A stretch of DNA of 64,000 nucleotides from contig NZ_JAKUKA010000001.1 in the NCBI RefSeq assembly GCF_023156195.1, positions 1,302,001 through 1,366,000 on the forward strand, in the 5' to 3' direction. The notes under the pieces were generated by a model that saw nothing but the letters and a program-made list of their open reading frames with translations, had not been told where the DNA came from and searched no databases. This DNA is from Chitinophaga sedimenti. GTDB taxonomy: Bacteria > Bacteroidota > Bacteroidia > Chitinophagales > Chitinophagaceae. Within the stretch, counting starts at the first letter, position 1, and every line of letters starts with the position of its first letter. A program made the translations under genes and the position numbers. Positions 29,623 to 36,614 of the stretch are shown here, piece by piece.

Positions 29623-32165
29623 TTGAAGTACCTGTTTTTACTTTTGCTGCTGACGGGCGGCTGTTTCACGTTAAGAGGCCAAACGAACGGGCCGGTCAGG
29701 TCGAACGATTATGAGGAGCTGGTGCGGCAACAGGCTGCGCAGCGAACCGGCGATACGGTCTTTGGCCTCAACCCGGTGGGGCGTTCACCGCTGCGTGTGC
29801 TCAATGAATACGACTTGTACATGGGGATGGTGAAGTCGGTACAGTATACCGATTCATCCCTGTATGTTCAACCCTGGTACGGCAGCAACTCCGCATCGGT
29901 GCTGCTTACACGGCCACCTGGGAGCAACGTTACCTCAACCGCCAGCCCGCGTTACAGCAAACTTATGCCCAGGGCCGCAACAATACCTGGCGTGGGGCCG
30001 AAACGGGGAGTTATTCAGCTACGGCCCGTTGTTGCCGACGCTTTTCTACGATGGCGCCCCCTATGAGTATGATGAAAAGGGGCGCCTCTCCGCCATGGGC
30101 AGCGGCCCGGTGGCAAAGCCCTATCGGAATAATATCCTCCGCAACCCAACCTTGTTATCACAGGTGTTTAACGTAGATCTCGCGTACCTGCGTAATAGCG
30201 ACAAAACAATATGGAGCGGTATGAAAATATCCCGCGCAGATGAAGCGACACCGGTCAGCAACAACGATCATACGCTCCGCAGCCTCGACCTTATGCTGGG
30301 TGCGGGCTTCCGCGGTTGGAAACTCCAGTCTAAATTGCTCCGGCAGGAGGATGACTTCTCCAATTCCAATCGAACGGGCTTTCTGAACCGCGCTTATCAA
30401 TATGGCCTTTTAACACCGGCCAGCTTCGAAAATGCGCAGGGGGCAACGTTGCAGAATGGCGCGCAGCGGAGTTACAGCCTCCAGGCAGATAATCCCATCT
30501 TCCTGTTGCACAATTATGGTCATTTCTATCACCGGGAACAAACGAACGGTGGGCTTGAAGTAGAGAAGTCATGGAATGGCTTTCGTTTGTCGCTGATACA
30601 GGCGATGGAAAAGGTGCACGATATAGCGGAAGAAGGCTACGAGGCCGGCACGGCCGGTTTTCCGGACAGGGCAGCCTTACGCCGGTCGCAGGACGATCGT
30701 TCCTATTATTTAAAATTTGATGCCGCACGGGAACGTATTGAACTGCTGGAGGGTGCGGTCGACCTGGGGTTACGTATCAGGTATACACTGGCAGATAATG
30801 AAACCGTCATTAACTACCTGGCGGGAGATGCCTGGAAATACGGGCGCAGTACGCATGAAGTGCATACCAGGACGGAGTTAAAACATCATTTTAACGGTGG
30901 AATTGACCTTATCCTTGAACTGGGTAACACCGGCTATACTTCTAATACTGCGGCGGCGGGGCAGGCGTGGCTGCCTTCCGCAAGCTACAGCTCAACCGTA
31001 TCCGCTTAGGACCGGGAAATCTTTACCTGTCGGGCGGTTATGCCAGCAGTGTAAGCGAAAAGTCTGTCAGCCGTTCGCTTTCCTATATCGGCCTTACGGC
31101 ATTGGACCCCTCGCAGTTAAACAGCTATCGGCCTGTGAACGAAGTGACCTCCTTCCGCGGTTTATGGCCTACTGAAAGTCGTTCCTGGGAGGGAGGTGTG
31201 CGTTGGAGCCTTAACAATTGGTGGCTGAACCTGCAAAGTTATACCCGCCAGTTAAACCGCGATGTATTTCCTGTACTGGAAAATAGCCGGTGGTGCTGAA
31301 AGATCTTGCCGACCACCGCGAGAACGGGTTTGAGGCCGTTGTGGCGTACAATGAAGCGTTTGGCCAATATAATTATCCCGTTGATAATCGTTGGCATGTA
31401 TCGGGGCAACTTTCTTTCAACAAAACAGTCAGTAAGGTAACCGGTATTGGTAACGGGTATGATTATACGCCATTGGTGGGATTCCGGGGTATTAACCGGG
31501 CAGTGGTGAAAGGCGCCCCGCTGGGCGCTATTGTTGGCAGTTCCTACCGCCGCGATGCGGAGGGGCGGGTAATAGTGGGAGCAGATGGGTTTCCGTTGGT
31601 CGACAATACGCCGAAGGTGATCGGTAATCCCATCCCGGATTTTGTGATGAAACACTCCCTGGGTTTGTCGTGGCGTCGTATCCGGTTTAATCTTGATTTG
31701 CAGTACCAGCGCGGTGGGCAGGTATGGAATGGGACGCAGGCGGCCCTTGATTATTATGGCCGGTCGGCTGTTAGTGCGCAGTGGCGTAATACGCGTGATT
31801 ACATCTTTAAAGGCGTGAAAGAAGATGGGCATGTGAACGATATACCCGTAGCTTTTAACGACCCTGTCGCGCCGCTGGAGCAAAACCGCTGGGTGCGTTA
31901 TGGCGTGGCCGGTGTGGCGGAGCAGTATATACAGGACGCAGACCATACTCGTGTCAACAACGTATCGCTGGGATACGAGCGGAAAGTGTTCCGGGCCACC
32001 GGTTTCAAAATTACGGCCTATGCCCGTAACCTGTTGCTGTGGACGGCTTACGACGGTAACGATCCGCAGCAGGAGCTGATGGGGATCAAGGGCGGTAACG
32101 GCCTCGATTTTTTTAACCTGCCTTCGACTAAAAACTTTGGTGTCACCTGCTCAATTACGCTCTGA
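29623..32165 (+). CDS. SusC/RagA-type outer-membrane barrel without plug domain (frameshifted)
   Basis: About 848 residues. I take TTG 29623 as start because it opens a clean signal peptide (KYLFLLLLLTGGCFTLRGQ); an in-frame ATG at 29542 is possible. The body is SusC-type barrel sequence: WEQRYLNRQPALQQTYAQG, ETGELFSYGPLLPTLFYDGA, GNPIPDFVMKHSLGLSWR, VNNVSLGYERKVF, and the SusC C-terminus with LPSTKNFGVTCSITL. Between signal peptide and barrel there are only about 85 residues, with no carboxypeptidase-like domain, no VDG-type plug motif and no YGSRGANGV motif. Those elements occur instead in the next gene, 3 bp downstream. Frameshifts lie near 29900, 30007, 30961 and 31290; none can hide a missing plug because the gap is too short. 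No SusD is adjacent. Confidence 0.82.
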
Positions 32166-32168
32166 TCT

Positions 32169-35100
32169 ATGAAGTCACGGATACATTTTCTGATGGCGGC
32201 GCTGCTGCTGCTTATTGCCGGAAAGGCAGGCGCACAAAAGGCTTATGCCAGCATGCGCGAAAAGGCTTATGCACATACGAACCACGTTTTTTTCAAACCC
32301 GGCGAATCGCTCTATTACAAAATATATATCGTCAACGCATCGGATAATACCCCTTCCAATGTAAGCCAGGTGGCCATCGCCGAGCTGCTCGGACCTTCCG
32401 GTGCGCTGGTGAAGAAACGGAATGTGCCGCTCGTGTATGGCCGTGGCGACTCCGGCTTTCAGCTTGACCCCAACTGGCCGGGCGGGGTGTATAAGCTGCG
32501 CATATATACGCAATGGATGCGCAATGAAAGCGATAGTCTTTTCTTTGAGAAGTCGATTACGGTACAAAAAACGATCAGTCCCCGTGTGCTGATGAAGCTC
32601 GATTTCCCGGCTAAAGGCCTGGGGCCGGGCGACGAAGTAGTTGCCGACCTGGAGGTGCGCAACCTGGCGGGTTTACCTATCAGGTACCAGCAGGGCAGCT
32701 ACCAGGTAACATTCGCCGGAAATGTTTACCGGTCGGGTATTTTTGAAACAGATGAAGCAGGGAAGTGCCAGTTTAAATTGCGCTTACCCGACACCCTTGC
32801 TACCCGGGATGGGTTGTTGAATATCTCCTTCAACTACAACGGTTACACGGAAAACATTGCCCGTAATCTGCCGCTGGCGTCCGGCCAGCTGGATATGCAG
32901 CTGATGCCGGAAGGTGGTACGCTGGTGGCCGGCCTGCCTAATAATATTGCTTTCCGGGCAATAGGTGTTGATGGACAGCCGGTAGATGTAAAAGGATATT
33001 TGCGCGACAGTAAAGGCAAGCAGGTGGCCACCTTTGAGGCCTATAAATTCGGGATGGGCCGTTTTATATTAACACCCGAAGCAGGCATGACTTACGAAGC
33101 AGTGATCACCTCTCCCAAAAACATACAACAACGGGTCGGACTTATGCCGGTGGCCACACAAGGGGTGGTGCTGAATGTGCTGAACGACCGGCGGCCCTCG
33201 TTAAAAATTTTGTCTACCATGGAGCAGGAGGTATTGATCACCGGCACCACACACGACAAACTGATATTCCGCGATCAGGTGAGACTCAGAAAAGGACAAC
33301 TGCTGATCCCCATCGCCGATACGGTTTTCCCACCTGGTATTGCACGTTTTACGCTCACCGGCCTGGATAACCGCCCGTTGGCGGAAAGAGTCTGCTTCCT
33401 AGGTGGCAACCGGTTGTTGCGCACCCGTATAACAACAGATAAAGCCGTATACGCGCCGCGCGAAAAGGTGAAGCTGTCTGTACGCACCACCGACCAACAG
33501 GGCCGGCCTTTGCCCGCTGATCTGTCGCTGAGCGTGGTGGATGATAAACTGTGGACTATGGCGGACGACCGGCAGGACCATCTTATATCCCTGGTTGCTC
33601 ATGAGCAGCGAGCTGCGGGGAAAAGTATATGAGCCTCCTTTCTATTTCAAAAGGATGAGGAAAAGGCCGCCGGTGCGCTGGACCTTGTAATGCTGACGCA
33701 CGGCTACCGCTACTTTGCTTACCTGCCGGAAGTAAGGCAGTCGGGCCTCCTGAAATACGCGCCGCAGCTGGGTAACATCTTTAGTGGTATTGTTACTGAT
33801 ACTGCTGGTGTGCCGGTGGTGGCGGACGTGTTTATGATCGACTACCGGGTGTCGAAGCGCGCGGTTCGGATAGCAACAGGGCCGGATGGAAAGTTCTTTT
33901 TCTCCGCACCCACAGCGGCCAATCAATTGCTGGTCATTGCTAAATCCAGGCAGGCAAAGCAACCGGTAAAGATCAATATGGAGAAGTCCGGTTCCAGTCT
34001 TAACGCGCCGCTGCCCGAATCGGTGTTTATGGACGATGCGGTTACGTGGGAGGCGCAGCCGCTGCAGCAGGATATCAGGAAAGGAGAGGAACTTTTTGCA
34101 AATAAAATCAAAGTGGCGGCACCGGACCAGGCGCTGTCTGAAACGGTGGTCGTTGGTTATGGAGTACAGCGGCGGGAGGCATTGACCGGGGCTGTCAGCA
34201 GCATCCGGAGTATTGAGGTGGCCGGTGGTAATCTCACCGGCGCACTGCAGGGAAGAGCGGCAGGTATTATGATTCGTGGTGCGGGTGCAGCGACACCCAG
34301 CTACGAACTGTATGGATCGCGCAGTGCCGTGGCCACGGAGCCGTTGTTTATCGTGGATGGCTTGCCGGTTGACAAGCTGAACGCGTCGCTGAACATGAAC
34401 GATGTAACCAATGTATACGTATTAAAGGACGCAGCAGCCACCGCGATTTATGGCAGCCGTGGCGCCAATGGTGTAATACTCATCACCACCAACTATGGCG
34501 GCGGTTCTTTTGCTGTGTCGCTGAATAAACGCTATTACTACGCCCCGGAGAACGTTCATAACTGGCAGGAACATGACTATGAGCGATTGTTTTATGCGCC
34601 GAATTATGGATACGACGATGACGAACGTGTGAAGAATGATTTCCGCGAAACGATTTACTGGACCGGCACCGTACAAACCAACAAAGATGGAAAAGCTGAC
34701 CTGGAATTTTATAACTCAGATGCCAACACGACGTTCAGGGTAATTGCGGAGGGGCTTTCGTACGACGGGAAGCCGGGAAGAGCAGAAGTCACTTATACGG
34801 CACAATCGCCGCTGAGTGCGGATATTAAAGTGCCGCCTTACTTAACGGTTGGAGATAGTGCAATGTTGCCGCTGGTACTGAAAAACAACCGCGATACGAG
34901 TGTGGCCGTTAAACTTGCGCTGTGGCTGCCGGATGGCTTTAGTGCCGGCAACTATCAAGATAGTTTAGTATTGGGTGCCGGAGAAAGCAGGCGCGTTTTA
35001 TTACCGGTTGCGGCCAGCAAGGCGGTTGGTGGCGTGCTGCGGTTAGGTGTTACCACGGGCAAACGCACGGAACGGCTGGAGTGGCCTGTGTCAGCGGGTG

Positions 35101-36614
35101 CAAAAGGCTTTCCGGTAGTGACCACCCTGGGCGGGACCGACCAGGTGAAAAAGAGCTTCGAGGTCAGGAAAGCGCTGCCAGGCAGTGTGGTTGCCAGCCT
35201 GGGGGTGTTTAACGACCTGGCGGAACAGCTTTCGTCCGGTATAGATGATATGTTACGCGGGCCGCATGGTTGCTTTGAGCAAACGGCCTCGGCGGCCTAT
35301 CCGAACATCTATATCCTTCGTTACCTGCGAAGCAATGGGAAGGCCAATTTTAACAAGGAAGACCGGGCATTGAAATACCTGCAGCAAGGGTATAACAAGA
35401 TGGCCGGGTACGAGGTGAAACATGGCGGTTTTAGCTGGTTCGGGGAGGCGCCGGCCAAAGTAGCCCTTACAGCTTATGGCTTGCTGGTGTTTAAGGAGAT
35501 GAAAGAATTTATCCCTGTTGATTCGCAACTGCTGGTGCGTACCCGCGATTTCCTGTTAGCGCGCCGCGATGGCAGGGGAGGCTTCAGGGTGAACAGCGAT
35601 GCCGCGCCGGATGCGGTACAGGACATGTACATCGTGTACGCGTTATCGCAGGCCGGGTATGGCGAACAGGTAAAGAAAGAATACGAAGTTAGTGCAGCAA
35701 AGACCGCCACCAGCGGCGACGGTTATCGCCTGGCACTGGCGGCGCTGGCGGCGCATAATATGGGTAAGTTGGCCGACTACGACCGGTTCCTGCAACTGCT
35801 GGCCGCCTGTAAGGATAAGCCGCTCATGGGCGCCGTGAGCGGTTTTACGGGCAGTCGCGGGGAAGACACGGAGGTGGAGGCCCGGGCGTTGTATGCGTTG
35901 GCGCTGATGCGGGCGGTGCAGCCGGACCAAACATTGGTAACAGAACAACTGTCGAAGTTGCGCCGGCTTGTTAGCGGTTATGGCAACACGCAAAGCATTT
36001 CCCTCTCGCTGAATGCAATAACAACATACAGCCGCCAGTTATTAAAGCATGCTATGGACGGACAAATCAGCTTAACGCTGAACGGCCGTGCGGTAACGCC
36101 GAAAGACAGCATAGCTGGTTTTATAAGGGAGGGCGAAAATACGGTGGACGTACACTTTGGTCCTGGTGAACGTACGCCTTACAAACTGGCCGTGGGTTAC
36201 TACACCTTGCTGCCACCGGATAGCGAGGGCGCTGCAATTCACTTACAGACGAAGTTACAGGTCGGGCGCGCAAAAGCCGGTGAAACCGTGCGTTTACAAG
36301 TGGAAGTGAAGAACACCAGCGAGTGGAAGCAACCCATGGTTGCCGCGCAAATTGGTATTCCCGCGGGATTAAGCCTGCAGCCCTGGCAGCTGAAACAGTT
36401 GCAGGAGCAGCATGCATTTGATTACTACGAGATGTTCAATAATTACCTTGTATTTTACTGGACGGGCATGGAAGGATCGGCGGTGAAAAATATTAACCTC
36501 GATCTGAAAGCGGAGATACCCGGTGTGTATACCGGTAAAGCCAGCAACGCCTACTTGTATTACATGTCGGGTGCGCGCCACTGGAACCCTGGTCTGTCCA
36601 TCACCGTGGAGTAG
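32169..36614 (+). CDS. Alpha-2-macroglobulin-like protein with embedded SusC-type plug domain (frameshifted)
   Basis: About 1,480 residues. Signal peptide (MKSRIHFLMAALLLLIAGKAGAQ without lipobox), then macroglobulin domains at about residues 25-500 (MG2 with FFKPGESLYYKIYIVNASD and PGGVYKLRIYTQWM). SSELRGKVYEPPFYF and LDLVMLTHGYRYF follow in a register restored by two indels near 33598 and 33652. A carboxypeptidase-like domain follows (about 535-600), then at about 657-778 a SusC-type plug: SETVVVGYGVQRREALTGAV, LFIVDGLPVD, VYVLKDAAATAIYGSRGANG and VILITT. The macroglobulin core then resumes (FRETIYWTGTVQTNKDGKAD). It contains the thioester-type motif GPHGCFEQ at about residue 1034 (Cys and Gln in place, Phe for the usual Gly) and an alpha-alpha toroid. 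The end reads HWNPGLSITVE. Macroglobulins trap proteases; the role of the plug is unknown. Confidence 0.85.

Follow-up and report, generated by a model that had tools for sequence, protein, structure and literature searches.

In this study, we analyzed a 64,000-nucleotide stretch of the Chitinophaga sedimenti genome (contig NZ_JAKUKA010000001.1, positions 1,302,001 to 1,366,000; the window), in which a gene for a SusC-type outer-membrane barrel that has no plug stands immediately before a gene for an alpha-2-macroglobulin-like protein that has a SusC-type plug. TonB-dependent transporters have been treated as single-chain plug-and-barrel proteins. The comparisons presented here make it probable that the two genes encode a natural split SusC-family TonB-dependent transporter, made up of a plugless barrel and a periplasmic macroglobulin bearing the plug. 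A sequence-only reading of the window had drawn attention to the pair and suggested looking for it in other Bacteroidota, where the arrangement was indeed found: a plugless barrel gene precedes a plug-macroglobulin gene in 87 of 90 related loci, on the same strand in all 87. The other three loci (L016, L030 and L034) are cut by contig ends and have less than 1 kb of contig upstream, leaving no room for a barrel gene. On the sequence evidence the pairing exceeds chance, since 87 of the 90 loci repeat the arrangement and the remainder end at contig edges.

The contig scan, from which the best 80 matches were kept, recovered at least 79 loci, from Chitinophaga, Niastella, Filimonas, Desertivirga, Chryseobacterium, Kordia, Psychroserpens, Winogradskyella, Aquimarina, Xanthocytophaga, Cesiribacter and other genera. 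The two genes were paired in 76 of the 79 loci scanned, 75 of which have a barrel open reading frame (ORF) ending no more than 400 bp before the macroglobulin start (including L022, where the barrel is cut by the contig start), the last being L026, where the barrel lies 1.2 kb upstream and a 134-residue ORF intervenes. In additional genome sets the pair was present in 3/3, 4/4 and 4/4 loci. The gap between the genes is 3–5 bp in 58 of the 87 pairs, the start of the longest macroglobulin ORF overlaps the barrel in 20, eight have other short gaps and one exceeds 400 bp. The next gene after the barrel is the macroglobulin in all 87 pairs (in L026 after the 134-residue ORF), and not SusD. Neighbor clustering of 83 loci gave no sign of a third conserved gene, as no cluster among the 14 largest listed extends to a majority of the loci, and those with more members come mainly from Chryseobacterium.

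Scans of 392 Bacteroidota genomes connected the absence of a plug in the barrel with its presence in the macroglobulin. Macroglobulin alignment matches (E ≤ 1e-80) were found in 38 genomes, four of which (G000, G165, G350 and G366) have full-length macroglobulins with both plug and thioester domain (TED), and one of which (G274) has a full-length macroglobulin without a plug. In the remaining 33 the matches are all shorter and stop close to the plug, most of them lying in open frames of ~800–980 residues. The barrel alignment (E ≤ 1e-70) identified 24 positive genomes, and barrel open frames of fewer than 1000 residues occurred only in the same four genomes as the macroglobulins with plug and TED. 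Loci were fetched from 17 of the other 20 genomes, which have barrels of plugged size (three were not fetched), and all 17 encode a barrel with its own plug; SusD is the next gene in 10 of 10 of these that were scanned. These counts rest on at most two scored candidates per genome, so weaker plugless barrels could be missed. Conversely, four thioester macroglobulins without a plug (L088, L134, L135 and L136) have the GCxEQ motif (4/4), and a barrel neighbor was found in none of the four. A TED search was positive in eight of 247 genomes, namely G000, G165, G350, G366, G274 and the three of L134–L136.

The barrel gene of the window, located by profile and sequence, occupies 29623..32165 on the forward strand, where the other window features described below also lie, and opens with a TTG start region and signal peptide. 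Positions 3–848 of the barrel profile are covered by five frame segments over 29626–32159, joined by four frame changes: segment 1 (29626..29874; profile 3–83), comprising the signal peptide and N-terminal stretch, segment 2 (29880..30011; profile 86–133), segment 3 (30002..31006; profile 131–465), segment 4 (31018..31308; profile 473–570) and segment 5 (31287..32159; profile 564–848), which includes the last strands. The largest gap along the profile is no more than 7 positions, so the gene is complete along its profile, and the idea of a plug concealed by the frame changes was rejected on that ground. A plug-profile search of all six frames of this stretch gave no match, bearing out the claim that the gene at 29623 lacks a plug, and no TonB box was found in the window barrel. 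The frame breaks of the window are most easily explained as uncorrected base errors, given that the source genome (6.42 Mb) is a 3-contig assembly with 80.49% completeness. Among the ten best rows of the comparison with 106 barrel homologues none exceeded 54% identity to the window barrel, so a near-identical open barrel from the same species was not seen. A V-x-P-I-x-S-x-D-Y-type motif follows the signal peptide in Chitinophaga (in the window from 29623 onwards, for example) or the extension domain in Flavobacteriia; 52 of 83 barrels have an N-terminal match to a crude pattern for this short motif, which may serve in docking. The two flanking genes scanned encode a helicase and a PAP2 protein, neither of which is SusD, in keeping with the earlier statement that SusD is missing.

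The plug-bearing macroglobulin gene with a thioester motif (32169..36614; Pfam and sequence) starts 3 bp past the barrel stop. Its signal peptide-like start (32169..32237) ends in AGA before a Q with no lipobox Cys seen, as judged from the sequence rather than by a signal-peptide program. In the Pfam scan an MG2-type macroglobulin domain lies in the first half (best stretch 33429..33545) and Plug, A2M and TED lie in the second half, and a CarboxypepD_reg-like domain below the Pfam cut-off was placed at 33783..33962. The SusC-type plug (34134..34493; Pfam and profile alignment), which takes the bait-region position of the macroglobulin, begins with the TonB-box-like sequence LSETVVVGYG (34134..34163) and contains the motifs FIVDGLPVD (34347..34373) and AIYGSRGANG (34443..34472). 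It is followed by the A2M domain, the MG7 equivalent (34650..34919; Pfam and profile alignment), and by the Pfam-matched part of the TED (35223..35618) with the thioester motif GCFEQ (35268..35282). The TonB-box-like assignment was made by comparison with the levan SusC Bt1763, whose TonB box is DEVVVTG and whose N-terminal extension is Pfam 13715 according to the accessible text of PMC7782687. A single in-frame stop interrupts the window gene at 33630–33632, within a short out-of-frame stretch; P0001, one open protein of 1473 residues, is 99% identical to the window macroglobulin and open where the window has the stop. The sequence-only reading had placed the plug motifs and GCFEQ correctly, in agreement with the Pfam Plug, A2M and TED matches, and its observations on the two genes hold, although it had missed that the plug occupies the bait-region position, that the barrel gene carries four frame changes and that there are other Plug proteins without a barrel.

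Matches to the SusC model TIGR04056 (981 positions, curated cut-off 368.25 bits) show how the two proteins complement each other. The model matches two macroglobulins at its positions 74–242 and 58–248, whereas its best stretch in three of five barrels runs over 213–980, 211–981 and 190–980, and in two more diverged barrels it starts only at 591 or 648 and runs to 981. Scores were 43.7–244.7 bits for the five barrels, 172.6–189.6 for the two macroglobulins and 64.7–256.7 for four further barrel homologues, and none of the proteins scanned reached the cut-off. By these matches, the SusC model is divided between barrel and macroglobulin. The plug profile matched 82 of 82 macroglobulins at E < 1e-5 and, even at E ≤ 10, none of 83 barrels nor any of four examined later; Pfam Plug was found in 0 of 37 barrels at E ≤ 0.01. 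Among the 106 matches of the barrel protein search, the first 100 (P0121–P0220) list no Plug and the six below them (1041–1083 residues) do. A strict TonB-box pattern was present at 52 of 93 macroglobulin plug starts versus none of 87 barrels (first 220 residues), and a loose pattern, attainable by chance, at 81 of 93 versus 23 of 87.

Structure prediction placed the barrel among the SusC proteins. The AF2 model of the 846-residue barrel of Chitinophaga sp. S165 (L006), built from a 71-row alignment in which 15 rows are the barrel parts of plugged relatives, has a mean pLDDT of 91.3 and 22 long strands (DSSP) from residue 86 on, with a poorly predicted N-terminus. VIA-align matched residues 87–846 of the model (first residues 87 or 88) to 5fq6_B 171–984 and 5t3r_D 211–1016, and also to BtuB 134–594 and FhuA 158–714. 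The plug profile covers 5fq6_B 13–173, so the barrel alignment starts where the plug of that chain ends, and we take it, going by the presumed plug limits of BtuB and FhuA, that it starts at about the plug end there as well. The plug profile also matches 5t3r_D at 3.9e-46, a structure described as solved without its plug in the available part of PMC7782687. By sequence the closest solved relative of the barrel is the peptide SusC BT_2264 (barrel profile against 5fq6_B, 5.9e-41), which is also the top Foldseek match of the model, the best PDB matches being SusC chains. The complex to which BT_2264 belongs has been observed with peptide, as stated in the same source (PMC7782687, accessible part), and since the nearest solved relative is a peptide-binding SusC, the cargo is likely a peptide or protein.

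Alignments of the macroglobulins located the plug relative to the bait region. In six that were scanned, the bait-region-domain matches (five of six) end at ~461–464, the CarboxypepD_reg-like matches (five of six) lie at ~526–599, the plug matches at 677–793, and the A2M (MG7) match starts at 841–855. Position 830 of the macroglobulin profile aligns with residue 727 of human A2M in 6tav, and the human bait region comprises residues 690–728 according to the accessible text of PMC8267569, the two numberings being assumed identical. As aligned, the plug module fills the interval in which a protease bait would be expected, just before MG7, and the interval between the bait-region domain and MG7 holds a CTD-like domain, a TonB-box-like motif and the plug instead. 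The domains by which Type I alpha-2-macroglobulins are recognized (MG2, A2M and TED) are present in the window protein and the homologs scanned with Pfam. The thioester motif GCxEQ was found in all 117 protein homologs P0001–P0117 (from the best 120 of 7580) and in 92 of 93 locus macroglobulins, the pattern GCFEQ having been used in the locus search itself. A crude pattern classed the starts of 85 macroglobulins as lipobox-like in 5, a hydrophobic stretch followed by Q in 70, neither in 9 and other in 1, from which we infer a periplasmic location.

These results suggest a mechanism, the steps of which differ in certainty. In SusC proteins the plug has its two ends directed at the periplasm, which would allow a macroglobulin located there to carry it from beneath, and the joining of the TonB box to the plug would itself place the macroglobulin on the periplasmic side. 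From there it would dock its plug into the predicted 22-strand barrel in trans, hanging under the pore by two flexible tethers and closing it. A SusC channel with its plug removed is 20–25 Å wide (PMC7782687, accessible part); a plugless SusC barrel would thus leave a large hole, for which a plug encoded by the neighboring gene would be the obvious closure. The pull of TonB on its box would drive the plug out and leave a wide channel open; in vitro, SusC plugs are reported to be able to come out of the barrel as a whole (PMC7782687). Given the position of the plug in the bait-region slot, the thioester domain would be set free when the plug moves or is cut by a protease on its way in, and would then hold the incoming protein or peptide covalently, linking TonB action and thioester through a single protein. 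Closure by a plug in trans appears the best-supported of these steps. As proposed in the sequence-only reading, it gains support from the pairing, the complementary matches to the SusC model, the presence/absence controls and laboratory precedent, whereas the SusD-like lid that the same reading had offered did not fare as well (see below). Capture is the step of which we are least sure, and we put it forward tentatively. Potentially, the system is a TonB-gated protein trap in which the bait is the plug of the pore, and opening of the pore or cleavage of the plug arms the thioester so that the entrant is covalently captured in the periplasm, although we consider this complete scheme doubtful.

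Several observations weigh against a split transporter. The model of the plug module (409 residues) is moderate (pLDDT 65.8), with a low-confidence stretch at 108–164 before the plug and weak stretches after it; this pattern is consistent with a tethered module, and the Foldseek matches of the model at E ≤ 0.001 are SusC chains. One of the 93 locus macroglobulins, L066, lacks GCxEQ, and the periplasmic location relies on signal peptides judged by pattern. The pair is also patchy, with plug-macroglobulins in five of 147 genomes of the window's family and five of 90 genomes of the family of G350. In a sliding-window distance comparison of 82 pairs (excluding L022, whose barrel is cut by the contig end), barrel and whole macroglobulin correlated at r = 0.96, but nothing indicated that the plug in particular had co-evolved with the barrel: the raw correlation of the plug windows fell to 0.67, with lower values only in TED windows (0.59), and partial correlations were 0.30–0.46 for the plug, 0.68 for the CTD, ~0.6 for the N-terminal MG domains and negative for the TED. 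Finally, Plug domains occur in Bacteroidota proteins that have no barrel, including short MG2-Plug-like proteins and proteins in which Plug is combined with a transmembrane (TM) segment or VWA domain, and the barrel gene of 26 Chryseobacterium loci is preceded by one for a second Plug protein, so there it is ambiguous which protein owns the plug of that pore.

The last of these points feed the alternative that survives best, namely that Plug is a general periplasmic recognition module, binding for example TonB or an envelope ligand, and that the macroglobulin never enters the barrel, whose closure would be left to some other factor or to the loops of the barrel itself. The short MG2-Plug-like proteins without a thioester domain (L089–L104 and L126–L133) are far commoner than the long form: they occur alone in 33 of the 392 genomes, and a plugless barrel was beside them in none of the 24 loci fetched. 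The sigma-linked TM-Plug and VWA-Plug proteins, a small secreted protein (L085, described below) and the lack of specific co-evolution are likewise what this alternative would lead one to expect. Against it, plug-bearing thioester macroglobulins are paired with a barrel in 87 of 90 loci (the other three cut off) versus none of four plugless ones. In addition, 27 canonical positions conserved in 31 SusC plugs are kept far better where a barrel is present, with a median of 81% in the macroglobulin plugs (88 proteins) versus 48% in short MG2-Plug proteins without a barrel (21 of 26 aligned, the five that gave no plug alignment being dropped). On balance we regard a general recognition module as unlikely.

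Three alternatives remain. One, which we consider highly improbable, is that the barrel serves to export or anchor the macroglobulin and does not act in import, with the plug as a docking handle. The same conserved pair would be expected, and an analogous arrangement exists in the type IX secretion translocon SprA, an outer-membrane barrel closed from the periplasm by a separate plug protein, although SprA belongs to a different barrel family with a different plug and involves no macroglobulin. An export port is at odds with the peptide SusC BT_2264 being the closest solved relative by sequence and the top Foldseek match, and with a TonB-box-like motif being kept on the plug module. Another is that the macroglobulin is a surface-exposed SusD-like lid, as the sequence-only reading had also entertained. 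The macroglobulin does take the gene slot that SusD occupies after the plugged relatives (10 of 10 scanned), but a SusD family search found none in the window macroglobulin or six homologs, the signal peptides are mostly plain-looking (crude lipobox matches in 5 of 85, a signal-like stretch then Q in 70), and a plug with its TonB box would face the periplasm, leaving such a lid extremely improbable. The weakest alternative, that sequencing errors conceal a plug in the first gene, could draw on the four frame changes of the window barrel, but it is already contradicted by 83 open plugless barrel copies in related loci (one, L022, cut by a contig end), as well as by the coverage of profile 3–848 with no gap over 7 positions, and its probability is negligible.

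A split transporter would share features with several known systems. Like the SusC/RagA transporters (TIGR04056; BT_2264 of the SusCD complex BT2261-2264; RagA), it has a predicted 22-strand barrel, a plug of the same family and a TonB-box-like motif, but its plug and TonB box are on a separate polypeptide and the next gene encodes a macroglobulin instead of SusD. The macroglobulin resembles Type I bacterial alpha-2-macroglobulins such as E. coli YfhM and Salmonella SaA2M in having MG2, A2M, TED and CXEQ, with profile matches to 4u48 and 4ziq. Unlike these proteins, it has a plug module in the bait-region interval, most copies have no lipobox by the crude pattern, and its gene is paired with a barrel gene rather than with the PBP1c gene, the partner given for bacterial Type I macroglobulin genes in the accessible text of PMC5764988. 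FhuA has reportedly also been split in the laboratory into a barrel and a separate plug, as has FpvAI, and in both cases the halves were engineered, whereas here the split would be natural and conserved, with the plug built into a macroglobulin. For FpvAI, a soluble plug supplied in trans partly restored the function of the plugless barrel (PMC10994204, accessible part). We found no description of a macroglobulin with a SusC or TonB-dependent plug, of a plugless SusC or of a plug on a separate polypeptide in a literature search of partial coverage (few subscription papers and no bioRxiv), which is not proof of novelty.

Other Plug-bearing proteins were encountered in the course of the analysis. 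The plugs of the short MG2-Plug-like proteins (L089–L104 and L126–L133) are degenerate or undetectable; one of these proteins, L104 (G000:C1:2474363-2476294), is in the window's own genome, and its plug region no longer matches Pfam Plug. In Chryseobacterium, all 26 loci (L038–L049, L051, L053–L056, L058, L059 and L061–L067) have a Plug-bearing protein upstream of the plugless barrel (for example L064:1139-4122). Those examined are preceded by an extracytoplasmic function (ECF) sigma factor gene and have, besides a TM-like segment and a TonB-box-like motif, a short N-terminus that looks cytoplasmic; some stop after the plug and others continue with VWA/YfbK_C or with VWA and a type IX sorting tail. 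This upstream protein looks like an anti-sigma-type protein with a SusC plug, and as a membrane-anchored second plug protein beside an ECF sigma factor it may monitor the same pore and report on its state. A further upstream Plug protein, L137:4065-5591, was assigned by layout only. At L085:3123-3593, just upstream of a plugless barrel, there is a gene for a 156-residue protein whose start is signal-like and whose two halves each resemble a plug.

Such a system would be easily overlooked, since most barrel homologs have no precomputed Pfam domain, and those that a source names are mostly listed as hypothetical protein. If the split is natural and conserved, the extent to which a plug leaves its barrel would become open to direct tests, as plug and pore could each be expressed, deleted and labeled on their own. 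A specific pore of the outer membrane would then also be linked to a complement-like thioester protein, which would suggest a bacterial innate-defense or protein-capture device in which the plug of the pore serves as the bait.

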